Under the pieces are notes generated by a model, which was not told the DNA's origin, made no database searches, and worked only from the letters and a program-made list of their open reading frames with translations. The translations under genes were made by a program, and so were the position numbers. Below are positions 3,991 through 47,722 of a stretch of DNA of 64,000 nt, in pieces. Within the stretch, counting starts at the first letter, position 1. Every line of letters begins with the position of its first letter. Source of the DNA: Fistulifera solaris (Eukaryota > Bacillariophyta > Bacillariophyceae > Naviculales > Stauroneidaceae); NCBI GenBank assembly GCA_030295235.1, contig AP026167.1:434001-498000 (forward strand). The letters are read 5' to 3'.

Positions 3991-4800
3991 ATGATTCAAT
4001 TAATATCAATATTCATTTGGGTGGCTTTTGCTGACGCGTGGACGTCCAGTCCCCTACAAACCCGCATCCGCACGTCTTTGCGACTCTCCAGCGCATCGTC
4101 TGAAAGTGTAGCTTCCTTGAAAGCGGATTTAATCGCAGCTTGCACTCGGGGAGGCCAACCGGAAAACATCCGTGGCCTTGTAAAAAACTTGATGCAAGTT
4201 GCCAAATCAAACGGAGAAGGGCAATCGAGTAGTTCGTCCGGTTTGCTGTCAGGCGAATGGGAATTATTGTACGGCACCGAAGACGAGACGCGGTCGTCGC
4301 CGTTTTTCTGGGCGTTTCGAAAGGCAACTGACACTGCGGATCAAATTTACAGCATCACCGATAGTATTCCTGCACCATTGAAAGAGGTCGGACCCGCGCG
4401 ACAAAACATCGAATGGATCGATACGGCACAGACAGGTCGTTTCGTATCGCGAGTCAAAGTTGCCACCTTGGGTGGTTTGGCGACGTCTATTATGACGACA
4501 CGAGGAACCATAGTCGGAACCGATGGAACAGATGGTGTTGTCTTGCAGATTGATTCTACCAAACCCGAGAAAAGCACGGCTTTGTCGACAATATTGGGCC
4601 CATTGGGTGGTGTGTTGAACGAGAATGCCCCTCCATTTCCTAGTGGACAAGCTCTCGAACAGCTCCGGCCGGGTTCATCGAAAGTAATTATGCGTACAGG
4701 ATATTGTGACGAAGGTTTGCGAATTAGTTGGGATGATGCACGTCCGGATGATTTCTTTGTGTGGAGACGAAATGAGTTTGCAAATTATGACTTCTTGTAA
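3991..4800 (+). CDS. Plastid lipid-associated protein (PAP/fibrillin family)
   Basis: Fibrillins bind lipids in plastoglobules and thylakoids and are linked to stress tolerance and carotenoid or quinone storage. The 269-residue product starts with a hydrophobic signal peptide (about residues 1-16) ending ADA-W, the aromatic +1 residue typical of bipartite plastid targeting in diatoms, followed by a Ser/Thr/Arg-rich transit region. The PAP domain fills residues 40-265: LKADLIAACTRGG, LSGEWELLYGTEDETRSSPFF (WELLYT-like core), a central beta region with FVSRVKV, and the C-terminal LRISWDDARPDDFFVWRR motif. The frame is intact and single-exon. The ATG is the only one ahead of the signal peptide. 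The exact fibrillin subgroup cannot be decided by eye. Confidence 0.86.
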   Translation: MIQLISIFIWVAFADAWTSSPLQTRIRTSLRLSSASSESVASLKADLIAACTRGGQPENIRGLVKNLMQVAKSNGEGQSSSSSGLLSGEWELLYGTEDETRSSPFFWAFRKATDTADQIYSITDSIPAPLKEVGPARQNIEWIDTAQTGRFVSRVKVATLGGLATSIMTTRGTIVGTDGTDGVVLQIDSTKPEKSTALSTILGPLGGVLNENAPPFPSGQALEQLRPGSSKVIMRTGYCDEGLRISWDDARPDDFFVWRRNEFANYDFL

Positions 4801-6154: not shown

Positions 6155-7402
6155 ATGAGCAAAATAATATCTTGGAGCAAAGCATCGTCGGAAACATTGG
6201 ACCCTGAAAGTCTCACTATCACCAGCTTCAAATCAAAAGACGACAACGATGTCGGCACTGGAAGCGATGAGAGTAGCTTTGTTTCAAATAAGTTCAAATT
6301 CGGCCTGCTTCTGCTGGTCGTCCTACAAAACTCGTGTGCAATTCTAGTAGGACGATTCACGCGAACGAACGTACCTGCGTCAGATCTCTATGATATCAAT
6401 CACTTCATTGTCATATCCGAATTTCTGAAATTCATTTTTTCTGCTGTCTTGGAGTTTCGTTCCTCCTCTGGCAATCTTCTATCTTCGGTCGATCGCCATA
6501 TAATCCAGAAACCTTTCGACGCGAGCAAAGTCGCAATTCCTTCTTTTTTGTATCTTATTCAAAACTCGCTCATCTACTCAGCTTTTGCGAATTTATCAGT
6601 ACCTGTTTTCCAGGTCACCAATCAAGGGAAGCTGGTACTCACAGCGTTGCTAAGTGTAATTTTCTTGGAGCGACGATACTCGCTTCAGCAGTGGGTCTGT
6701 TTATTGGGGCTCTCCCTAGGCGTTGCTATTGTGATTCTGGATCAAGCAGAGGGAGAATCTGACATCGGCAAGAAGCGCGACTTGTTGATTGGTCTGTCTG
6801 CCATGGCGATTGCATCTTTCTGTTCGGCGACGGCGGGTGTGTACTTTGAGAAGGTTCTCAAGGCACCTTCAAGCGAGCTGAAACAGCCACAGGCCTCGCT
6901 TTGGATGCGAAACATGCAAATGGCGTTCTACTGCTGCAGCATCGGAATGATTCAGTCTTCGTTTCAAAAATCATCGAATGCGGAACATGCCTATCTACAT
7001 GGTTTTAGCGCCTGGGTTTGGTTATCAGTGATTCTTCAAGCAAGTGGAGGTTTGCTTATCGCATCTGTCATTCAACATCTTGACAATGTTTTCAAAGGCT
7101 TAGCCACTGGTGTGTCGGTTGTGTTATCGTCGGCACTCTCTACGGTTATTTTCGGGAACGTTCTCGGTGTGCAGTTTTGTACAGGCACGGTCATGATTCT
7201 GTGCTCGGTGTACTTTTTCAGCAATCCATTACCCAAGTCATCCCTGGTCAAGAGCTTGATTTCATCATTGGCGGGCAAGAGGTGGGTTCTATGGTTGCTC
7301 TTCACGGCTGCGGTAGGACACCGCGCTGTCCTCCTTATCGCAGCCAATCAAACTCAAAATACACTGGTTGTATTGGAAACATTGTATAAAGTAGAAGGTT
7401 AA
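6155..7402 (+). CDS. Nucleotide-sugar transporter, SLC35A-like
   Basis: A multispanning Golgi/ER antiporter that imports a nucleotide-activated sugar for glycosyltransferases. The 415-residue product has about ten hydrophobic segments, after a polar cytosolic N-terminus of about 50 residues. Family signatures (Nuc_sug_transp) are IPSFLYLIQNSLIYSAFANL, FQVTNQGKLVLTALLSVIFL, the LGLSLGVAIVIL helix, SATAGVYFEKVLK and SVIQHLDNVFKGLATGVSVV, the last corresponding to the conserved K-N/ D-N-x-x-K region of CMP-sialic acid and UDP-galactose carriers. The substrate cannot be told from sequence; with three O-fucosyltransferases nearby GDP-fucose would be attractive, but this subfamily usually carries UDP- or CMP-sugars. 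ATG at 6155 is the first methionine in frame. Single exon, intact. Confidence 0.88.
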   Translation: MSKIISWSKASSETLDPESLTITSFKSKDDNDVGTGSDESSFVSNKFKFGLLLLVVLQNSCAILVGRFTRTNVPASDLYDINHFIVISEFLKFIFSAVLEFRSSSGNLLSSVDRHIIQKPFDASKVAIPSFLYLIQNSLIYSAFANLSVPVFQVTNQGKLVLTALLSVIFLERRYSLQQWVCLLGLSLGVAIVILDQAEGESDIGKKRDLLIGLSAMAIASFCSATAGVYFEKVLKAPSSELKQPQASLWMRNMQMAFYCCSIGMIQSSFQKSSNAEHAYLHGFSAWVWLSVILQASGGLLIASVIQHLDNVFKGLATGVSVVLSSALSTVIFGNVLGVQFCTGTVMILCSVYFFSNPLPKSSLVKSLISSLAGKRWVLWLLFTAAVGHRAVLLIAANQTQNTLVVLETLYKVEG

Positions 7403-16975: not shown

Positions 16976-18615
16976 TTATGAAATGTCATGATCAATATCC
17001 CTCCAACTTGTGGGAAACTCTCTGGCATAAAGGGATCCAAACAATGGCCAGTATCCACGCATGCGGTGCTTTTTCTCAATGGGAGCATAGTAGTAGGATG
17101 AGACGATTCCGTGTTTGTATCCTTTTACTTTGTTCTTGTCCGCATGATAACCTCGGATGCGATTGATGTATCCGGTGAAAGTGCTAAACCAACAACCAAA
17201 GAACACTCTTGATTGACTTGCCACTAGCTGATCGACCATCCCATAGTACATAGTATCCATTCCGTCAAGTGAATGCACAAAGTCATCCAAGAAAACAATG
17301 TCAAATTGCTTTTGAAGATCCGCGAAGAACGTCTTGTTGCGCTCATCGGTGGCTACATAGACGACCGCTCCGTGGCGGATTTCTGGTTGCGACGCGTTGT
17401 ATATATCGCTGGCGGATATACGTGTTTTCTGACATTGAAATTCTCCTCGACGAATGTGAAACGCATCAAACTCCCGACGGCCGGTGCGCTTAAAGGCATG
17501 ATCCCGCACCGCCTGCACCACACGCGCCGCCGCACACTGGATATGATCGGCATAGCGAAGGTGATCCCGAACCAAGCGCTTGTAAAACAGATCATTGTGC
17601 CAGTTTTCGAAAAAGAGGAATGCATAAAAGTGGGTCAGTAGACGTCCGCTCAATTTGGGTTTGCCGTGAAAATGTAAAAGTCGTTGTTGCTGCAACGTAG
17701 CGTTGTAGACACAAAGTTGTTCACGTCCAGCGCGCATTTCACTCAAACGATCGGTGGAAGGAGCACCGACAGAAACGGGATGACCGAAGTATTGTTCTGG
17801 CTTGGGAAAGGCTTGATTCTCCAGCCTCATGGAAAACCAAGACTCCAGTTCTGACACACTCGACTCGTCGTCAGAAAACACGGCAATACACTTCTCTGGA
17901 TTCCACGAGGGCATCGTTGCCACACTCCGTATCCAGGGTTGAAACTCGGTAGCAATTTCGTACGACATGCCGTCCCAATGCGTGCGATTGTGGGGTGGCC
18001 GTAATAAAGGTCTCTCGCGACGCAAAAATTCTTCCGTGGAAATGATTTCCAACCCAGCTTGTTCACGGCTTATGCGCGAGAGTGGCAGGAAAGTGTCCAA
18101 TGTGATAGTATTCTTGCCTTTTTGGCTTTCTAGCAAATAATATTCCTGTGCCGGGGGCTAGAGAGAGAAGTGAGAATAACGAATTGAAGAGTCGACAACA
18201 AGCAATTATATGTCTTCAAACAGACCATCACCAAAGTTCGTCCCATAGCATGCGCCATAACAATGACTGTTTCCAGATTCATTCGAACATTATTCCAGCC
18301 TCCTTTATCGGGCTCGAATGTCAAGTATTTGGTCGTCTTGCTGTTGTAAAATGGTGATGTGTAGGCGGCATCTGTCGGTATATCCCTCCAATAGATCATT
18401 CCGGACGCATCTTCGGGCCCACCATACGACAAACAATTCAATTCTGCCAAAGGACTATGCTCATCGATCACAATATGGTTTTCGAGGGTCCATTGAGGTT
18501 CCGGTAGAAGGAACGGAAGCCCTATCGGAATGAAACATCCGAGAAAAAGCAAAATAAAAACAAGAGCGATGACCGCCATAGAACCAAGCGGTTTCCGTCG
18601 ACGCTGCTTTCCCAT
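16976..18615 (-). CDS. O-fucosyltransferase-like type II membrane protein (paralogue C), two exons
   Basis: Third member of the array, 523 residues, frame intact. Exon 1 complement(18226..18615), intron 18158-18225 (68 nt, GTCTGT...CTCTAG), exon 2 complement(16976..18157). Signal anchor at about residues 13-37; then YLTFEPDKGGWNNVRMNLE, AMGRTLVMPPAQEYYLL across the junction, FDAFHIRRGEFQ, VYVATDERNKTFF, MVDQLVASQSRVFFGCW, TGYINRIRGYH and AREFPTSWRDID. Unlike A and B it has no micro-exon: the same stretch is continuous, and its single intron is at a position neither paralogue uses. The donor motif has E where A and B have D (RRGE against RRGD), a conservative change. The ATG at 18615 gives a basic cytosolic tail before the anchor. 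Confidence 0.87.
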
Positions 18616-19046
18616 TTCAAATGAAACAGTAAACTACTGCTTATTACTTCGATACGTCATTGTAGTCATTACAATTTGATTCATTGCTGTTGTTACTGTT
18701 TGGAAAAGCTGTGATTATTGCGAAAAAAAATAAAAATAGCACCGAACCATTTTTCGGGTCAAAGATGCTACGCTTCGAAAAGTTTATCAGTATGCGACCC
18801 GGATGTTTTAGTACCTTTTTCCTTCAGAGTAATAAGTCTTACCAGGTATCGTGTTTCAGAACGGCGTTTCAAATCACGAGTGACATACTTCAAGCTTCAC
18901 CTTTTCAAAAATTTGCTCGACCATCATGCGAGCACAGACGAAATGCTATAAATACGAAATAATTGACAATTGACAATTGAAAACAACTATATTCTGCAAA
19001 AGGCTTTTAATTCGTCGAATTGATTGGTGGCGTCTATCCGGAAAGA
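18616..19046. other. Divergent promoter region, paralogue C / acyltransferase-lipocalin
   Basis: No gene supported. One TACCAGGTA motif at 18840-18848. Confidence 0.5.
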
Positions 19047-22000
19047 ATGAATCTTAACACAATACTCCTGCTTTTTTTTTCTTGTCATTATTCCGATGCC
19101 TTTGCGCCTCGTCTGACACGAGGCATACACACTACACTGAGGGAAACGAGTACTAAACCATGGTTCTTTGCCGATAAGCAAGTCGTGAAGAAAGAAGAAG
19201 AACAAATCGATGCAGCCACAGAAACAAGAATATTGGGTTCACAAGAACTGCTCATGGCACCACGTCAATACAGTTTGAGTGATGAAACATTCCCCGCTAT
19301 GAATCATGTCGCGTGTGCCATTTTATCCGCTACTCCGGATTCCAACGTCATTCGACAAGCACTGAACTATGTTATGCAAACACACCCTTTGCTTAGAGCG
19401 AAAATTATTGGGGACGGAGAACCAGAGAAACGCATCGATCTCTTCCAAATGGTGCGAAAGGTACGTCTCTACAATTGTGTCAATCCTCGTTGAAAGACAC
19501 TCGAGTCGTCTCTATAATCTCATTCGTTTCTGGTAGGGCGATCCAAATCCGATGCAATTTCAAGTAGATTCTTCGCTCACCGCGGATGCAGTTCTACATA
19601 TCATCGATACGGATCAGTTGGAAACAAGCTGGCAAACTGCTTTTGCTCGGAACTTAGATGACGGGACGTGGTGTGATGTGACGGTAGGGCCTTTGTGGAA
19701 GCTAGAATTGCATCGAGACAAGAAAACGGGAAAATGCGCCCTCTTGTTTGCGTTCAATCATGCCATTTCCGATCAAAGTAGTGTCAACCGGCTGGTCGAC
19801 CAGATTTTGCGTAAAGTAGTCGTATTGGAGAAGGGCGAAACACTGCCCCTGCAGCCGCAACGTATACCCGTGGCATTGGAAGATTCCGTCTTGGGTATGC
19901 AACAGAGATGGTCGGATGTAACAACAAATGGGGTGTCGGTCGACACTATCCAATACGTTGCGAGTAAGGCGGCGGAGGGATTGCGCAATCCGGTCATTCT
20001 CCCGGAATCGTCGTCATCGAACAGCGGGAATCCACTGGGTGCACTCACGATCATTTCCGGACAAACTGCTGGAGGAATGGATACCGAACAACGAAAATCG
20101 ACGGTACAATTTCGGTCGTTGTCTCCGAGTCCTACATCAGCGTTGTTATCGCAATGCCGCGCCAAGAATGTATCTGTCACCAATCTTTTGACAGCAGCCG
20201 TTACGTTGACCGCAACTGATTTCATCGGAGACGGAACTGACACGAGTAGTGAGCGCAACTACAAAATATTACAGTCCATGGATATGCGTCGTTTTGGACA
20301 GCAACTTGATAAGGGCGAATCGGTGGCGTGTATGGCAGGTTCCATGGATTTGATGCACGGGCCTTTACCGGATCGTTCCGGAGAACGAGTTAGAACGGGT
20401 GAAGAAACCGAACTAGTATGGAAATTGGCCATGGAAGGAAAAGAGCAGACAGCACAGTTCATAGACAAGGGCGGACCCGAGCAAGCGGTTCGAGTGTTCG
20501 ATTTTGCCATGTCCGTTGCAGACTTGAACAATTTAGTTTACTTGACAGCTCAATCCAAAGACACAAAAGGCAGAGCATACAGTGCTGGAATAGCTAACAT
20601 TGGTGTATTCGAAAGCCAATCGGCATTTGGTACCAAAGCGGAGACTTTAAAGAGTAAACACGGGAGATATCAAGTGGAAAATATGTTCTTTGCGACCTCG
20701 CATGTACAATCGGGATGCCTGTATCAAGTATCGTGTATGACGGTAGATGGGAAATTGGAGTTGACATTCCACCCTGTTTCTCCTATTGTAAGCGAAGAGA
20801 CAAACCAGAAATTTGCCGATACATTTATGGAACTTCTCGAAGTTATTGCTGGCACGAAAGGTCCGGTGTCCATCGACTCCGCCAGCAGCAAGATCCCGAT
20901 TCTCCCTAAGAATATTCTCACTAGAGTTGCTGCGGTTATCGGAATCGGTTCCGTCTTGAGTCACTCAGCTGCTTGGGTTGATTTCTTCCGCTCCGTGTTG
21001 GAAATGAAAGCCAACATTGCCGATCCTGCTGACTTTTGGGCCGCTATCAACTTCTGGATCTTCTTCGCCGTCGGCCACCCTCTTCTACAACCAATTTTGT
21101 ATCTGAGCGATCTTCTTCATGGCAGTCCAGGTCCCCTGGTGGGAAACCTAGTTCCCTTTTCTTTCTTGGCGGGGAATGCTGTCGTTCTCTTCGCCATTAT
21201 GAAATTCAAAGATGTAAGTTGGATTTGTACGCTCATAAAGCATTCGACATCTCCATGGAGTTCAACTAACCCCGCGATCCCGCAGCTACGAAACGCGTTA
21301 AACGTTGCCGCACTGGCCGCGTTCTTCTCCTACGTGGGTGCTGGTTTAGATGGAACTGCGGGACTTGGAGACTTTAACCTTGCCTTAGATGACAACTACA
21401 AAGGCCAGATCGTGAAAGGATGCCCCGCATACGAAGACGTTCGACAGCCCAGTATGGACAACTTTGATCTAAACAAATATCAAGGCCTGTGGTACGAGCA
21501 GAAGTTTCACGATTGGACACAATTTAAAGAGGTCTACGATACCTCTCTCGATATCAGGGTGAGTCGATTGACCAAGTACTAACGCAAATTGTCTTGAACT
21601 GGTGCTTGAAGGAGTTACTCACACACTTGAAATTCTCAGTTAACGGAAGGAGGCAAGGGATGGGTGGATGACTTTGGCGTGAAGGGACCCGCTCCCGACG
21701 CTGCACCACTCTTCCTGGGACAAGAGTCCCGTGGCCAATGGCGCGCATTACTTTTTATTTGGACGCGTCGATGAGCGCGATCCTCCGGGAATTTTACGAG
21801 AAAAAGGATTTGGTGTTGAATTTCCCAATTACATTGTGGATGTTAAGAAAGATCCTAAAACGGGTGAATACACGGAATCGATACAATTTCAGTGCCTGGA
21901 ACGAGGCGGAGTTCGGGTTTTTGAAGGTATCAATTTCATGTCGCGCAACAAGGTTATGACCGACGAAGAATTGATGGCTATGCATGCTCGAGCTGAAAAA

Positions 22001-22171
22001 GCGGGCATGTATCCCTACGGAGCGAGTCCTGAGCAGATGCATCGCGTAGCACAGAGACCGGAGAATGCTCCGGCCATTGACAATAGTTGGCAGGCCATGT
22101 GGAGAGCGATTGGCCTAGACAAATTGCTAGAGTTGCTTACCGAGTCTATTGAGGATGGCGGACGAGAATAA
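19047..22171 (+). CDS. Plastid-targeted HxxxD acyltransferase fused to a membrane region and a lipocalin domain
   Basis: Exons 19047..19460, 19537..21213, 21286..21558, 21640..22171; about 964 residues. A signal peptide (residues 1-18) ends SDA-FAPR, the diatom plastid motif. Residues about 75-460 form a condensation/alcohol-acyltransferase-like fold: YVMQTHPLLRAKIIG, the catalytic FNHAISDQSSVNRLVDQIL (HxxxD), TNLLTAAVTLTATDF and the late GIANIGVF strand. Three or four hydrophobic spans follow (about 470-640), then a C-terminal lipocalin with the GxW-type start FDLNKYQGLWYEQKFHDW and a HYFLFGRVDERDP strand. Frame change in exon 4 near 21715-21731 (one extra base would explain it). Intron 21214-21285 is 72 nt with no in-frame stop. 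Lipocalins occur in xanthophyll-cycle enzymes, so an acyl transfer onto a lipid or carotenoid in plastid membranes is plausible; this is inference. Confidence 0.78.
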
Positions 22172-22483
22172 AGTAATTTTACGAGTAGGGTAGCGTGATC
22201 GAACGTGTTTTCATCAAGCTACATAAGTTCGTTATTGCTGCATCTCGTCCGTATTGGCTTGTGTGACCCAACCTTAGGCAGGATGTTTGATTCTGAACTT
22301 GAACCTTATAGGTGCATGTATCGTCCGAACAACATGAAATAATAATAATACGGAGTAATAAAAATGAAACGTTCATCGCATCCGCATCAATCATTCTCTC
22401 TTTTGTTTCCTGTGCATGATTTCTAAAACCTGCTGTAGAACTAAACTAGAAGGAAACAAGTGAATGGTTCTCGGAAGGAAACT
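22172..22483. other. Intergenic with an AAT run and TACGGAGTA
   Basis: Small gap before TBCD. Holds a short (AAT)n run at about 22341-22350 followed directly by TACGGAGTA (22349-22357). No gene. Confidence 0.5.
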
Positions 22484-25400
22484 ATGGCAGCAGAAAGCGA
22501 TGAGGATAACAATAACAATCGACACAGCCAGCCTTTTCTGTTTGCCGAACAGGAGCAAGTCTTTGCAAATATTGAACTATTGCGATGCAGCCAAGACGAT
22601 TTGTCGGAAAAGGCACAAGAAACCCGCCTTATATTCGACAAATATCTTGAGTGTCCTACACTGCTGGACCCCTCCTTACCGAAACTAGTGGAATGCTTGA
22701 GTCGAGGGTATCTTCATCGTCCGCCCAACGAAGCAAACGGTGCCTCCATGTTATCCATCTTGTATTCGCTTTCTAAAGTAAGGGGGTGGAAACACGTCGT
22801 GCGCTTTTTACCCGCACATAGTGAACACATTCTTATCGTGTGGGAAGCCTTGCAAACGTCGTCGTCTTGGGAATCGATTTATATCCTGTGGCATTGGATG
22901 GCCGTATTAAGTCTCGTGCCGTTCGATGTACAAGTCATGGTGGCGGAAGAACAAACGTGGTTGTCCCAAATGTTCGACTCGGCCCGTCAACAGTGTCACG
23001 ATGCGGGCCCGACGCGCGAGGCTTCCGCAATTTGTGTGGCTGCGTGGTTGTCGCGTGCGGATGTCTTTGCGATGCAGTGGTCCGTGTACGAAGCCTATGT
23101 GCAGCAAACTATAACTCAATATTCAAGTAAAAGCCAGACGGATGTGTTATTTCCACTCTTGGGAGCTCTAAAAGTGCTTAACACAATGCTCAAAACCTGT
23201 CGCACCGATCGGGAACAGCTGGTGCAACACTTTTTGCCCTTTTGGGATCCATTGTGGAAAATTGGGGAAAAACAGAAAGATCTACTAGTGACACACCAAT
23301 TGATCAAGTGGTGGGCACGCATGGCGGCAGCGCATTTGCCGCCGCGGATTGCACCGTGGCGGTATCAACGGGGGAAGCGTCTCTTATTCGTATTGTCTGA
23401 AACTACCAGCGAGACTCTTAACGACGAAAGTATAGAAAAGGAAAGGGAAACATTATGGAAGGTTCCAGATTTAGTGGAAGATGTCATGGGTCGCATTCTT
23501 TTGCGTTGCGAAATTCTTCTACCGTTGTTCGGTGGTCGGCGGCCAAAGGAGTGGGTCGTCTCACGGAACGATTGCCGGCTCTTTGCGCAGATGATGTGGT
23601 GGACGCCTTGTTAGAGACAGTGGAAGAAGAATCAGATGATGATAAGGTTTGGCACGGAACTTGTTTGGCAGTAGCAGAATTGGCGCGTCGTGGGTTACTG
23701 TTGCCCCATCGACTCGAGGAAGTTGTACCATTTGTCATAAGGGCGATCCATTTTGATGCGAGTCCGCCGTCATCGTCATCCACAGCAACTTCTAGTGTAG
23801 GAGCTCATGTCCGCGATGCTGCTTGTTATACGTACTGGGCATTTGGAAGGGCCTTTCACCCAAGTGTATTACGACCTTTCTTACGGGAGCTCAATCACGC
23901 GGCTGTTGTCACGAGCTTGCTGGACCGTGAGGTCAATTGTCGGCGAGCCGCTAGTGCTGCATTTCAAGAAGTTGCGGGTCGTCAGAAAGGAAATGTGCCC
24001 CACGGGATCGACATTTTGACAACGGCGGATTTTTTTCTCTTTAGGGAATCGGACAAACTCGTATACAAAGATCGCCTGCTCTGTTGCAACTTACGTCGAA
24101 TACAGAAAACCCATCATCAACCATCTCTACCGAGAAAAGCTCTTCCACTGGGATATTTCCATCCGGACACTGGCAGCTAATACTCTTGGTCGAATTGTGC
24201 CACTGGATGCAAGCTATTTCTGCTCGATCATCTTGCCAGATCTACTGGAGAATTCCCTTGATATGAAAAATTTGCACGTGCGTCATGGTGCTGTGGTTGG
24301 AGTTGCGGAAATAACATTTGCTCTAGCGACAAACGGTAGACTCTCCCAAATCTCTAATAAACACATGACTGTGCTAAAACGCTTAGTTGCGAACATTGAA
24401 AAGAAAAGGCTGTATCGAGGACGCGGAGGAGAAATTATGCGGTCAGCTATTTGCCAGTTGGTGAAACGCATTTCACAGTCTCGAATCGACCTATCAGTGA
24501 AAGAGCAAGTTCAGTTGCTGGATTCTGTGGATGCCTGCATCCCTCACCCGTCCGAAAGTATTCAAAACGATGCCTGCCAAGCTCTCCATCAACTACTGAT
24601 GGCTTATTTCCCAGTTAGCGAACATGGGCCCTCCGACAGGCTACAGAATCGTGTGGTCGGCAAATTTACTGATACGTGTTCATCAAGCGAAAATCCAGCG
24701 GCTACCAGAGGCTATGCTCTTGCACTGGGTTATTTACCAGCGAAACTCGTCGCTCCCTCTGATGCTGTCTTAAGCTGTGTCATTTCTTGTCTTATTGAGT
24801 CTTCCAAGCACACGAGCCTTGTTGGAAGTGAAGGCGACGCCGAAACTCGAAGAAATGCTCTTTTCTCTCTTCGTCGGATCGCGACAAGGGCATTGACTGC
24901 TCGCGACACGTCAGAAACTTCATATCCTGTTGTCTTTATAAGCGTAGACTTGGTATTTCAAGTTTTGGATGCCCTTTATCTTGCTTTGAATGATTACAAA
25001 ACAGATCGCAGAGGCGATGTGGGTTCCTGGTGCCGCATGGCTGCGATCGACGGGATGGTCGAAATACTATTGCTTTCCGGCGATAACGCTGAGCTTGCCG
25101 GTCGTTTATCACATGGCCATGCTACAAGATTAGTTGCGGCCATTTTGAAGCAGCTTGGTGAAAAATTGGATGTTGTTCGTAAGTGCGCTGGTAACGGTTT
25201 AGCGAGAATTCTCTTGCATGAACCGCATATCACTGGAATTGACTTCAGAAGCGAACTTCAAAATGCTTTAGGGGTGGCAGGAACGCCTCCAAATTGGGCC
25301 GATTCCTCGCTGGCATTCGACCGTTTGAAGGATGTGATTTCACTACAAGACGTTCCTGACCTTTACGTCGATAACGTTCTTTTCGGACTTATAGTGAGTG

Positions 25401-27898: not shown

Positions 27899-29631
27899 AT
27901 GAGAGAAATTGTTCACATTCAAGCAGGCCAATGCGGTAACCAAATCGGTGCCAAGTTCTGGCAGGTACGTTCAGTTTTCTTATCATTTACGATCGGGATA
28001 CCAACGCGGCCGCACCAATCCGATGCCGTCGTCCACGGAGACAGCCCTGGTAATGACGGTCCGGTTTTAGAGGGGAATGTCTTATTGGCTTCTCTTCCAA
28101 TAAGTAAAACTTCTGTTTGAACCTTTGCTGTTATACAGAAAACGTGTAGGACGGATTCCAGTTTTTCAATCCGCTCCTAATTGAATGACCATGGAGGTCG
28201 GAAGATCAATGAATTGGCTCTGCTGTGGGATTTTACTAGCATTTTCACAGTATTCACTTTAAACATGATGTGCTTTGCTTCAGAGATGCCCGAAATGACT
28301 TTGCCTTCTCTCAGGATCTTTTCAACTAACTATTAAATGTCGCCTCGTTTTGACAGGTCATGTCAGCAGAGCATGGAATCTCGGGAGACGGCTCTTATCA
28401 CGGAGATAACGAGAATCAACTGAAACGCATTGATGTTTACTTCCATGAAGGTATGGAGGGCCGCTACGTTCCCCGCGCTGTTCTTACGGATCTTGAACCT
28501 GGTACCATGGACGCGATTCGCGCCGGACCCTTCGGGCAGCTGTTCCGCCCCGATAACTTCGTGTTTGGACAGAGCGGTGCCGGTAATAACTGGGCCAAGG
28601 GACACTACACGGAGGGTGCTGAGCTAGTTGATGCCGTAATGGATGTCATCCGCAAGGAGAGCGAGAGCTGTGATACTCTGCAGGGTTTCCAGTTAACTCA
28701 CTCGATGGGTGGAGGAACCGGGTCTGGTATGGGTACTTTGTTGGTGTCAAAAGTCAAGGAAGAGTATCCCGACCGTATTTTGAGCACCTACAGTGTCGTG
28801 CCTTCTCCCAAAGTTTCGGACACTGTCGTTGAGCCCTACAACGCTACTCTTTCGATTCATCAGTTGGTGGAAAACGCGGATCAGTGCTTTGCTCTCGACA
28901 ACGAAGCCTTGTACGATATTTGCTTCCGCACCCTGAAGCTAGCGAACCCTAGTTACGGAGACTTGAACCATTTGATTGCTAACGCAATTGCAGGAACTAC
29001 CTGTTCTCTTCGTTTCCCTGGACAGCTCAACTGTGATCTTCGCAAGTTGGCTGTCAACATGGTTCCGTTCCCTCGCCTCCACTTCTTCTTGGTTGGTTTC
29101 GCTCCGCTCACTGCTGCCAGCTCGCAGAGTTTCCGTGTCTTGACAGTCCCCGAACTCACTCAGCAGGCATTTGACGCGAAGAACATGATGTGTGCCGCCG
29201 ATCCTCGTCATGGACGTTACTTGACTTGCGCCATGATGTTCCGAGGAAGCATGTCCAGTAAGGAAGTCGACGACCAGATGCTGCAGATGGTCACCAAGAA
29301 CTCTTCTTACTTTGTTGAGTGGATCCCGAACAACTTGAAGGCCTCTATTTGCGATATTCCGCCCAAGGGATTGGCGATGTCGAGTGTATTTATCGGTAAC
29401 TCCACCGCCATTCAAGAGGCATGGAAGCGTGTCGCTGATCAGTTCACAGTCATGTTCCGTCGTAAGGCTTTCCTCCACTGGTACACGGGTGAGGGTATGG
29501 ACGAGATGGAGTTCACCGAGGCGGAATCCAACTTGAACGATCTCGTCTCCGAGTACCAGCAATACCAAGACGCCACGGCCGAAGAAGAAGACATTTCGGG
29601 TGACTTTGAAGAGGGTGCTTATGCCGAGTAA
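27899..29631 (+). CDS. TUBB: Beta-tubulin, two exons
   Basis: Structural subunit of microtubules. Exon 1 is 27899..27964 (22 codons), intron 27965-28356 (392 nt, GTACGT...TGACAG), exon 2 is 28357..29631; 446 residues, the usual length. The start is MREI, the tetrapeptide read by the tubulin mRNA autoregulation machinery, followed by [17 protein letters not shown]. The GTP-binding loop [19 protein letters not shown]-like [29 protein letters not shown] and an acidic tail ([16 protein letters not shown]) are all present. The intron is some five times longer than any other in the window and sits right after codon 22. No frame problem in a gene under strong constraint. Confidence 0.98.
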
Positions 29632-43782: not shown

Positions 43783-45437
43783 CTAGAAAAGCGCAAAGAT
43801 AGCAAAGGCGATTCCGGCGCCAACCATCACCAGCGACATGGGACGGGCAGAGGAAACATAGTCCACACCAGCGCTAGGATCCCAATAAATAATGGACGCG
43901 CGATGAGCGGCATCTCCACCGACAAAAGAGTAGGCAATAGACTCCACCTGCTTGCCTTCTTGGGCACGTCGCTCAGCGCGCTCAACCAACGGTGAGGTCG
44001 CAACGACCTTGATTGTCTGTGAAGTCGTATTGACTGATCGCGAGGACATAATTTCTGTCTCATTCGTGGCCGCCGTTGTCGCATCTGTGGCATCAGTGGT
44101 CTGGTTGGTGCTGGCTCCTTTAGTAGTAGCTTCAGCGGTCTCGGCCCAAGAGTATTCACCAAAGGGTGTAAAGCTGGTAGTGTCGGCCACATCGTCAAAG
44201 GCAATAAAGACATCCTCGGCTTCCATCCTGGCGGCTTCCGATTCCATTCCTTTTCGGTACTTGACATCCACTTTACGCTCAGTTTCGACAGTAGAGAGCA
44301 ACGCAACGAAACTATCATTACTGGTCCAGGGGAAGTCTTTCAACTCGAAATCAATCTTCATTTTATTGGCACTGGCGCTTTCTCCCTTAGGGGCTTGATT
44401 GATGGTGAAGGTGAAAGTAATGTTTCCATCAGGGCTAGTGAGACTAAACGAGGACGTTTCATTGTCGGAGGCAACATCGGAAATCACATTCCAGGTGTTG
44501 AGACTGATAGTCTGTAACACCACATCATTTTCCCAGTCATATGCCTCTCCGGTCGTAGAGTTTTCACCCTTGGTGTATTCAATAATGCTATCGTAGATGA
44601 CTTCAAATTGAGTCTTAGTTTCCTGTTCCGCTTGCAACGCCCGTTGTCCCTCGGCACCTTCCGGCGAATCATCCGCTGCTTCCGTTGGGGGAGGAGTCTC
44701 CGGGAGCTGGGCCCCTTCATCATCAACCGGTGTTTCTTGTGTTTCTTCATCAGCCGGTGGCTCGGGAGTTTCTTCGTCGGCAGGTGGCTCAGGAGATTCT
44801 TTATCAGCCGGCGGCTCGGGAGTTTCTTCGTCGGCAGGTGGCTCAGGAGATTCTTCATCAGCCGGAGGTTCGGCACTCTCTTCTTCCGGAGACGGCTCTT
44901 CTTGGTCCTCATGTTCATGATCATGCTCTTCTCCCTCCTCGTGTTCATGTTCTTTTTCTTCATCTTCGACCTTGATTTTTTGTTCATACTTGATCTTCAC
45001 CATCACACCCTTCTCCGAAGTTCCCACAACGTAATCTATCTCATCCTTGACTTTCGCGTTAGTGTCGTCGCTCTTGGCCTTGCACTTGAACGACACTTCG
45101 TTGGTTTCGGTTTCTTGTCCTAAAAGCGAGCGAGCGTTAGGTCCATCGGATATTGATTGTAGATGCATGATTCGATGCATACAGCCGGATTTCACTTACT
45201 CAGTTTGCAATCACGTTTCTTCGGGGCAATCGGGGACTCTTTCTTCCCTCCTTTACTCTCCGGTTCATCACCGGAATCGTCTGGTTCTTCTGGTTCCGGG
45301 GTCTCCGCCTCCTGTTGCAAAAGGCGGTATTCCGACTGGGCAGTAACACCACGCACCAGAGATCGGCTACGGACGGCAGCACGAGCCGACGGGAGAATGT
45401 ATAGGGATGCAATCAAATAGGCGGAAGCAATCTTCAT
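43783..45437 (-). CDS. Secreted, probably lipid-anchored surface protein with EPPADEE repeats (copy 1), two exons
   Basis: Exon 1 complement(45200..45437), intron 45120-45199 (80 nt, GTAAGT...TTTTAG), exon 2 complement(43783..45119); 524 residues, intact. A signal peptide (MKIASAYLIASLYILPSARA) is followed by PIAPKKRDCKL, KCKAKSDDTNAKVKDEIDYVV and IKYEQKIKVE, a His/Glu/Asp-rich stretch, five or six 9-residue repeats of EPPADEE(S/T)P, and a beta-rich domain (YDSIIEYTKG, VVLQTISLNTWNV, FTFTINQAPKG, KMKIDFELKDFPWTSNDSFVALLSTVE, SFTPFGEYSWAETAEA). It ends SSARPMSLVMVGAGIAFAIFALF, a short hydrophobic tail typical of GPI attachment. N-glycosylation sequons are frequent. No known family named; likely a cell-surface or frustule-associated protein. 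A close paralogue follows upstream. Confidence 0.75.
44745..44881 (-). repeat. 27-bp coding tandem repeat (EPPADEE(S/T)P)
   Basis: Five to six 9-codon units inside the surface-protein gene. Codons alternate between two versions, so that units 1/3/5 and 2/4 are more alike at DNA level, suggesting duplication of a two-unit block. Absent from the neighbouring paralogue, whose matching stretch is acidic but not periodic. Confidence 0.85.
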
Positions 45438-46044
45438 GTTGGAGTTGTTTTAAATTAGAAAATGATTAGAAGGAATGACAATTATCGTTTGATGAAGAAA
45501 GAATAATGTGAAGATGAGAGGTGCGGAAAACGACCACAATCCACGATGCACGATCCACCGATGGACGTGGCTGGCGCGCCATGGTCCGTTGAATAGCCAC
45601 GTCCGATAACAATCGAAGACCGGTATTCAGATTTCCATAGTAAGCAAAAACTCCCTCCACCTGGAAAGGTAAAAGGTGCGCGTCGAAGGAGCAGTCGGAG
45701 TATCTTTTGCACTTCGAGCGAGTATAGTCAAATTTCAAATGTTGTCACAGTTCAACCGTTGTGTGGTGACGAAATCAGAAGCCTGCGAAATCAAAATACG
45801 GAGTACAAGTATCGTGAATGAATAGGAACGCCATCGATCTTTCGAATGATGTCACTGATGTTCACCCTGTGATCCATATCTTGTCGTCACGTCGCAACAA
45901 ATACGTACGTGTTGGAAAAGGAATATAGAAGCTCATCATCTTGCGATCGGTTTGATGCGCTAACGAGGCAAAAGATAACATAAGTTCTACAACAATGTTC
46001 TATCTTTAGTGTATATGGAGACCACAATTCTCAGAAAATGCATC
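45438..46044. other. Intergenic between the surface-protein paralogues
   Basis: No gene. One TACGGAGTA (45797-45805). Confidence 0.5.
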
Positions 46045-47722
46045 CTAAAATGCTGTGAAGAGAGCCAAGACAAGCCCTGCACCCGCCATTGCCAAAGACA
46101 GAGGACGAGCGGACGATTGATAGTCCACTCCCGCGCTCGGATCCCAGTAAATGCGAGAGGCACGATGGGCCGCATTTCCACCGACGAACGAATAGGCAAT
46201 CGATTCCACCTGCTTGCCTTCCTGGGCACGACGATCGGCGCGCTCAACCAAAGGCGAGGTCGCCACAACCTTGATGGTATGGGGAGCCGAAGCAGTGGAA
46301 GAAGTATTGACCGAGCGCGAAGACATGATTTCCGTCTCATTGGTGGATGACTCGATCGTTGTCGTGTTCGTAGAATCATCGGTGTCTATAGGATTGTTGC
46401 TAGGCCCAGTGGAAGTCGCTTCCGCCGTCTCAGCCCACGAATATTTGCCAAATGGTGTGAAACTGGACGTATCTACAACATCGGCAAACGAAATAAAAAT
46501 ATCTTTCGGTGCCATTCCTCCTTCGGTTTCGACGTCTTGCCCGTACTCCACATCTACCGTGCGTTCAGTTTCAACGGTGGAAAGCAATGCAACAAAACTC
46601 TCGTCGCTGGTCCAAGGAAAGTTGTTTAGCTCGAAATCAATTTTCATTTTATTGGCAGTGATGCGCTGCCCATCAGCAGCTTGATTGATTGTAAAAGTAA
46701 ATGCCGTGGTATCATCCGGGCTAGAGACATTGAACCTTGACGTTTGACCATCGGTGGCAACCTCGGACATAACATTCCAAGTGTTGAGAGAAATGGTCTG
46801 AAGAACAACATCGTTTTCCCAATCATAAGCTTCGCCAGTGGTAGACCCAGATCCTTTCGTGTATTCAATGATGCTGTCGTAAACAACTTCAAATTCAGTC
46901 TCCGTTTCCTGCTCCGCTTGCAAAAGGCGCTCACCCTCAACACTCTCTTCTTCGTTTGCTTCCTCAGACGGTGGGGGGAATCTCTGGGCGTTCTGCCATT
47001 TCTTCATCCGCATTGGGCGACTCGTCAGGATAATCTCCGTTGGCAGAGGGTTCGTTCATTTCCTCGTCTTCCGGTTCAGCATCTGATTCCCCTTCTGCTT
47101 CGTCTTCCTCTTTGCCCTCCGATCCTTCATCAGCCTCGTTTTCTTCGACCTCAATTTCTTGTTCGTACTTGATTCGGACCATCAAACCCCTATCAGAGGT
47201 TTCTACTGTATAGTCGATTTCGTCTTTGACTTTGGCGTTGGCGTCATCAGACGTGGCCTTGCATTCAAAAGTAACCCCATTGGCTTCGTGTCCTGTTACG
47301 GTAATTTGGATAAGAAAGGTGTTCGCAACATGAAGTTAGTTGATTGACACAAAGTGTATGGGAACTTACTGGTTCGGCAATCACGTCTCTTTGGGGCAAT
47401 AGGAGACTCCTCGTCCTCGTCGTCGTCTTCATATTCCTCCTCTTCCATCTCGGGTTTTTTCTTCATCCGTCTCGGCGTCGTCCGTGTCGGTTTCTTCCCT
47501 CTCAGTTCCTTCTGTCTCGGTTTCTTCCATCTCCGTTGCTTCCACGCTGGGTTCTTCTGTTCCGGTTTCTTCCCCATCTCCATCCGTGGTTTCTTCCAAA
47601 GAACGAGAATCGACACGACCAGGAACTCCCCGCACAAGAGACCGACTGCGCACGCCTGCATACGCCGACGGGAGAACACAGAGAGAGACAATAAAGAGAC
47701 TGTAGGCAGAAGCAATCTTCAT
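46045..47722 (-). CDS. Secreted surface protein (copy 2), two exons, two frame breaks
   Basis: Tandem paralogue of the gene at 43783-45437. Exon 1 complement(47370..47722), intron 47293-47369 (77 nt), exon 2 complement(46045..47292); the intron is at the same place and phase as in copy 1. Shared blocks: MKIASAY signal peptide, RSRSLVRGV, PIAPKRRDC, DANAKVKDEIDY, YDSIIEYTKG, KMKIDFELNNFPWTSDESFVALLSTVETER, SFTPFGKYSWAETAEA, VATSPLVERADRRAQEGKQVESIAYSFVGG and a C-terminal apolar tail. The middle differs: ETEGTEREETDTDD-type acidic repeats before the PIAP motif and no EPPADEE units. Frame changes occur at a T6 run (47455-47460) and a G6 run (46973-46978), both repaired by one base. About 530 residues. 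Confidence 0.72.

Follow-up and report, generated by a model that had tools for sequence, protein, structure and literature searches.

A predicted plastid protein of the diatom Fistulifera solaris that joins an HxxxD acyltransferase to a putative lipocalin, a possible candidate for fucoxanthin acetylation

Fucoxanthin is the main brown pigment of marine algae and among the most abundant of the marine carotenoids. Xanthophyll esters are the product of the plant xanthophyll acyltransferase (XAT/PYP), which belongs to the esterase/lipase group. Acyltransferases of the HxxxD superfamily also esterify sterols, fatty alcohols and further lipids, and PapA5 (phthiocerol dimycocerosyl transferase, PF16911) carries out acyl transfer to hydrophobic alcohols without a lipocalin or a membrane part. 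For fucoxanthin itself, the late steps in Phaeodactylum are set out in PMC10396379 and in the available parts of PMC11857680 and PMC11629738: VDL2 leads to allenoxanthin, acetylation gives haptoxanthin, and ZEP1 and CRTISO5 complete the pigment. The acetylase yielding haptoxanthin is without an assigned enzyme in the available part of a January 2025 review (PMC11857680), as is the step to haptaxanthin, with the substrate named alloxanthin, in that of a March 2025 review (PMC11880063). VDL2, ZEP1 and CRTISO5 are assigned to late steps in Phaeodactylum; the acetylation falls between VDL2 and ZEP1, and the strongly conserved fusion gene described here makes it directly testable. A literature search, whose coverage excluded preprints and most subscription journals, found no carotenoid, xanthophyll or fucoxanthin acetyl- or acyltransferase by name, and no description of a lipocalin–acyltransferase fusion of the diatom chloroplast was found in titles and abstract openings or in the available part of PMC7212465.

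We analysed a window of 64,000 nucleotides (C18:434001-498000) from the 51.7 Mb, 61-contig assembly of Fistulifera solaris, which the available part of PMC5935921 describes as an allodiploid diatom with 42 homoeologous chromosome pairs. In this species, RNP editing is reported to reach the two homoeologous copies of a gene (PMC13276009). The gene reported here is also present on contig C17, with 92% identity over 900 bases, and an own-genome search found no further copies besides these two; the C18/C17 pair fits a pair of homeologs, consistent with the allodiploid genome. The gene model was derived by aligning the window copy with the homeolog. It runs on the + strand from an ATG at 19047 to a stop ending at 22171, the same position as in the first-pass annotation, and comprises four exons encoding one protein of ~964 amino acids. 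From the N- to the C-terminus, the domain order is a plastid-type presequence, an HxxxD acyltransferase, four hydrophobic segments and a domain read as a lipocalin. The features of the locus, in window positions, are:

18872..18898, + strand: non-coding 27-bp block, ~150 bases upstream, identical in both homeologs
19047..19157, + strand: bipartite presequence of plastid type, in which a hydrophobic start, MNLNTILLLFFSCHYSDA, is followed by FAPRLTRGIHTTLRETSTK; TDA-FTPRATRAIHTALRE in the homeolog
19047..19460, + strand: exon 1, from the homeolog alignment, 138 aa, with the start, the presequence and the beginning of the acyltransferase
19461..19536, + strand: intron 1, 76 nt long against 78 nt in the homeolog, identical at 64 of 76 aligned positions
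19537..21213, + strand: exon 2, 559 aa: remaining acyltransferase and hydrophobic segments 1-3
19759..19773, + strand: HAISD, the HxxxD motif, residues 213-217, identical in both copies
20581..20604, + strand: SAGIANIG, residues 487-494
20914..21348, + strand: four hydrophobic segments, residues ~598-616, 641-659, 675-693 and 700-718, interrupted by intron 2
21214..21285, + strand: intron 2, 72 nt long against 71 nt in the homeolog, identical at 54 of 70 aligned positions
21286..21558, + strand: exon 3, 91 aa, covering hydrophobic segment 4 and strand A of the putative lipocalin
21559..21639, + strand: intron 3, 81 nt long against 69 nt in the homeolog, identical at 49 of 69 aligned positions
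21640..22171, + strand: exon 4: remaining putative lipocalin and C-terminal extension

All three introns are GT-AG, lie in phase 0 and are conserved in the homeolog, with intron 2 placed within the membrane part and intron 3 within the lipocalin. Intron 2 is an open frame in the window copy and would, if unspliced, shift the frame of the homeolog; because its length differs by one base between the copies, splicing is needed for them to share a frame.

The protein of the window copy begins MNLNTILLLFFSCHYSDA-FAPRLTRGIHTTLRE. By eye, the cleavage-site motif reads SDA-FAPRLTR in the window and TDA-FTPRATR in the homeolog, with a Phe following the cleavage site and a basic transit part. A signal and transit form with Phe at the cleavage site (the ASAFAP rule) directs diatom proteins to the plastid, and the VDE of the same genome has a similar start, SVES-FAPR. 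By this motif check the fusion protein resembles the plastid-targeted type, and the plastid-targeting signal (SDA-FAPR) proposed in the first-pass annotation was recovered, by motif, as a plastid-type presequence in both copies.

In the Pfam profile search, AATase (PF07247) matched with 24.5 bits, above the cut-off of 22, and Condensation (PF00668) matched residues 84-246 with 28.1 bits (E 1.1e-6), slightly under the cut-off of 30.6; of the two profiles proposed earlier, the former therefore held and the latter fell short. The likeness to PapA5 lies in the C-lobe and is weak (PapA_C, PF16911, residues 330-390, 19.4 bits, below the cut-off of 30), and NCBIfam returned only a weak PapA-type match (E 0.13). 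The best PDB sequence match for the acyltransferase is the McyA condensation protein 8jbr_A (E 0.0029), where FNHAISD of the fusion protein aligns with FHHSILD. The first His of HHxxxD is here replaced by Asn, at a position where replacement is frequent across the HxxxD superfamily, and SAGIANIG resembles a motif from the C-lobe of AATase/PapA relatives. Judged by profile cut-off, the domain falls within the HxxxD superfamily and closest to its alcohol-acetyltransferase branch, and the protein would probably act as an O-acyltransferase. The AATase match and the alignment to 8jbr_A bear out the HxxxD acyltransferase (FNHAISDQ) first read at this position.

An NRPS condensation domain was considered and rejected, as the score of 28.1 lies under the cut-off of 30.6 and none of the Pfam matches of the fusion protein is an NRPS domain. 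With AATase (PF07247) and NRPS condensation (PF00668) proteins the fusion protein has the profile and HxxxD in common, and it is set apart from them by its plastid presequence, its hydrophobic segments and its lipocalin. An AlphaFold model of exon 2, predicted as a contiguous window piece without an alignment, had a low mean pLDDT of 36.0. Searches of the genome with PF07247 and PF00668 missed the fusion gene itself and are thus uninformative on other candidates; the same applies to a search with PF02458, which gave no match anywhere in the genome, controls included.

Four hydrophobic segments follow the acyltransferase between residues 598 and 718, as counted from hydropathy with a 19-residue threshold and overlapping peaks merged by hand, which agrees with the several membrane spans of the first-pass annotation. 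This stretch has no Pfam match. A further hydropathy peak within the acyltransferase (residues 350-368) is taken for a buried helix, and the hydrophobic core of the presequence is short and stays below the 19-residue threshold.

We interpret the C-terminal domain as a divergent member of the lipocalins, akin to Blc and ApoD. A Pfam search returned no lipocalin up to E 10, so that the earlier call of a lipocalin stands on profile alignment to Blc and not on the Pfam profile. Strand A carries a G-x-W motif (GLWYE at 21484-21498, exon 3), and FMSRN at 21935-21949 (exon 4) is followed by a helix-like stretch. We built a Blc profile from the best 80 of 540 bacterial blc loci, mostly close to E. coli, together with one lipocalin from the F. 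solaris genome. Aligned with this profile using hhalign, the window pair scored 29.9 over 136 columns (probability 32%); the maximum of 200 shuffles was 22.5, with none of the 200 reaching 29.9. The homeolog domain alone, aligned with the profile without the own-genome sequence, scored 33.0 over 135 columns (probability 54%), compared with 19.8 for its reversed sequence and at most 17.3 for 78 decoy chunks of other window genes; the two probabilities are modest. On the scale of the Blc profile, the lipocalin of the F. solaris VDE scores 22.1 as a single sequence and 38.7 as a six-row profile, and an own Lipocalin_2 protein scores 82.7. In the PDB the best match is apolipoprotein D, limited to the first strand (NFDLNKYxGxWYE) and not significant (E 0.24). 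AlphaFold, given a contiguous window piece covering part of the lipocalin and no alignment, returned a low mean pLDDT of 42.5. The domain thus shares with Blc and apolipoprotein D (PF08212) the G-x-W strand A, the SR with its helix-like stretch and a colinear alignment of ~135 columns, and differs from them in lying beyond the reach of the Pfam model and in being placed after an enzyme and a membrane stretch in one chain.

The first-pass annotation had tied this lipocalin to that of VDE, and this special likeness was not supported. Like the fusion protein, VDE and VDL (PF07137) combine a lipocalin with a plastid location and a similar presequence, and alignment to a VDE profile gave a score of 23.6, slightly above the maximum of 22.4 among 200 shuffles; however, this covers 32 C-terminal columns only, against 29.9 over 136 columns for Blc. 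A VDE-type lipocalin is not supported by this comparison; the Blc profile is the deeper of the two, which makes the ranking of Blc before VDE a lean and not a proof. PF07137 has no match in the fusion protein, and the fusion gene lies outside the 13 genome places that this profile found.

These parts suggest how the protein might work. After import, the HxxxD domain would face the stroma and move an acyl group, most likely from acetyl-CoA, onto the hydroxyl of a hydrophobic alcohol. The four hydrophobic segments would anchor the protein in a plastid membrane and, because their number is even, would place the lipocalin on the same, stromal, side as the acyltransferase. From there the lipocalin may extract substrate from the membrane or pass the product on. 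A xanthophyll would be the likeliest substrate, and the likeliest reaction would be the acetylation of allenoxanthin to haptoxanthin. We give a carotenoid acceptor a prospect approaching, but short of, even, and put forward tentatively the fuller reading of a plastid O-acyltransferase that is anchored in a membrane, carries a lipocalin and has a xanthophyll as its acceptor. The specific assignment as the allenoxanthin O-acetyltransferase of fucoxanthin synthesis, with the lipocalin fetching the xanthophyll from the membrane, is possible but more doubtful. The plastid compartment, the AATase chemistry and the build of membrane segments and lipid carrier suit the acetylation step, and suit other plastid lipid esters too. 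The earlier proposal of a plastid acylation candidate accordingly retains its acyltransferase match, plastid-type presequence, lipocalin and a pathway step without an assigned enzyme, and loses the tie of its lipocalin to VDE. Plant XAT/PYP would share the proposed job, the making of a xanthophyll ester, but is of a different family, of which the fusion protein has no Pfam match.

The same membrane-anchored plastid O-acyltransferase with a lipocalin could instead act on another lipid: a galactolipid head-group, a sterol or phytol-type alcohol, a chlorophyll c ester or xanthophyll fatty-acid esters. We hold this to be a serious possibility, nearly as likely as the reading with a xanthophyll acceptor, although not a probable one. 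AATase/PapA-type enzymes accept many lipid alcohols, the lipocalin resembles general lipid carriers (Blc/ApoD), and no carotenoid-specific feature was found among the sequence, profile and neighbour-gene results. Weighing against another substrate, we know of no comparable enzyme gap for other plastid esters. Fucoxanthin acetate, by comparison, is plentiful among plastid esters, and the enzyme that forms it is given as missing in the available parts of PMC11857680 and PMC11880063. Even with another substrate, the protein would pair a condensation-type acyltransferase and a lipid-carrier barrel in one chain.

Between the two homeologs, Ka/Ks is 0.063 over 959 codons; by region, the acyltransferase has a value of 0.069, the membrane part one of 0.091 and the lipocalin with the C-terminus one of 0.008. 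Within exon 1, Ka/Ks is 0.52 in the presequence and 0.16 outside it; exon 3 has a Ka/Ks of 0.026. Because these ratios are low (0.06 overall and 0.008 in the lipocalin), the fusion is selected as a single gene. Purifying selection in every segment past the presequence, together with the length difference that requires splicing of intron 2, corroborates the single fused gene of the first-pass annotation.

Evolution is slower in the lipocalin and C-terminus than in the acyltransferase (Nd/Sd 2/52 versus 26/93, Fisher p 0.0017), as might be seen if the acyltransferase-like fold were non-enzymatic in vivo and the protein, with the lipocalin as its main part, served as an assembly factor or as a membrane carrier of lipid or pigment. 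The Asn in place of the first His of HHxxxD points the same way. We consider such a role unlikely, however, since HxxxD is intact in both copies, the acyltransferase is itself constrained (Ka/Ks 0.069), and the first His is a commonly replaced residue in the superfamily.

Each assembled copy carries one frame-breaking base. In the window copy, a single surplus base near 21711 disrupts the frame within the lipocalin, a stretch that is unbroken in the homeolog; in the homeolog, one base is missing near window position 19743, in exon 2 just ahead of HxxxD. Substitutions between the copies are mostly synonymous on either side of both breaks, with Ka/Ks in exon 2 of 0.015 upstream and 0.072 downstream of the missing-base site, and in exon 4 of 0.005 downstream of the break. 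Alignment of the window with C17 gave 56 non-triplet gaps in 22 coding-like segments (23,688 bp), with at least one in 18 of the 22 and in 16 of the 20 that remain without the two segments of the fusion gene; these counts are an upper bound, as the segments run from stop to stop and take in leader or intron sequence, where some of the gaps fall. In segment 3835-4797, for example, every gap precedes the likely ATG at 3991. Isolated one-base gaps deep in open frames occur at 6549, 29013, 39328, 49045, 53361 and 55738, among others, that at 29013 lying within what we take, by eye, to be a beta-tubulin gene. VDE-family genes of the same assembly also contain internal stops or frame changes. Because non-triplet gaps are present in 16 of 20 other segments, assembly error is likely for both frame breaks and is their simplest reading; in this assembly, a frame break is poor evidence for a pseudogene without reads. 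That two adjacent genes or a decayed gene have been misread as a fusion, as the one broken frame per copy might suggest, is highly improbable, given that the breaks fall at different sites with strong selection downstream of both, that such gaps (some in leader or intron sequence) also affect the beta-tubulin gene and VDE-family genes are likewise broken, and that introns lie within the membrane part and within the lipocalin; selection on both sides of each break led us to reject two genes or a pseudogene.

The upstream neighbour, on the opposite strand, is an O-fucosyltransferase-like gene, and the downstream neighbour is tubulin cofactor D; the immediate neighbours are not pigment genes and the context adds nothing. 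No Rfam match was found in 17000-24000. Scans for relatives confirmed none in viral contigs (queried with exon 2, exon 3 and the in-frame part of exon 4) or prokaryote genomes (queried with the exon 3-4 part, without the acyltransferase), these scans reaching close relatives only. The 27-bp block upstream of the gene occurs at two genome sites when up to three mismatches are allowed, both exact and both upstream of the fusion gene copies, while its reversed control had 0 sites, and it is a possible promoter element.

Elsewhere on the same contigs as the fusion gene homeologs, distant VDE-family matches lie at C18:277332-278027 and C17:353507-353944 (47.4 and 35.7 bits). About 14 kb upstream of the fusion gene in the window, 3991-4797 (+ strand) encodes a protein of the plastid lipid-associated type, with a plastid-type start and a PAP/fibrillin-like domain (PF04755) at 21.2 bits, under the cut-off of 22. 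At 43786-47055 (- strand), two tandem related genes have, by eye, a common C-terminal part and show several indels against the homeologous region; the first of them contains acidic, proline-rich EPPADEE repeats.
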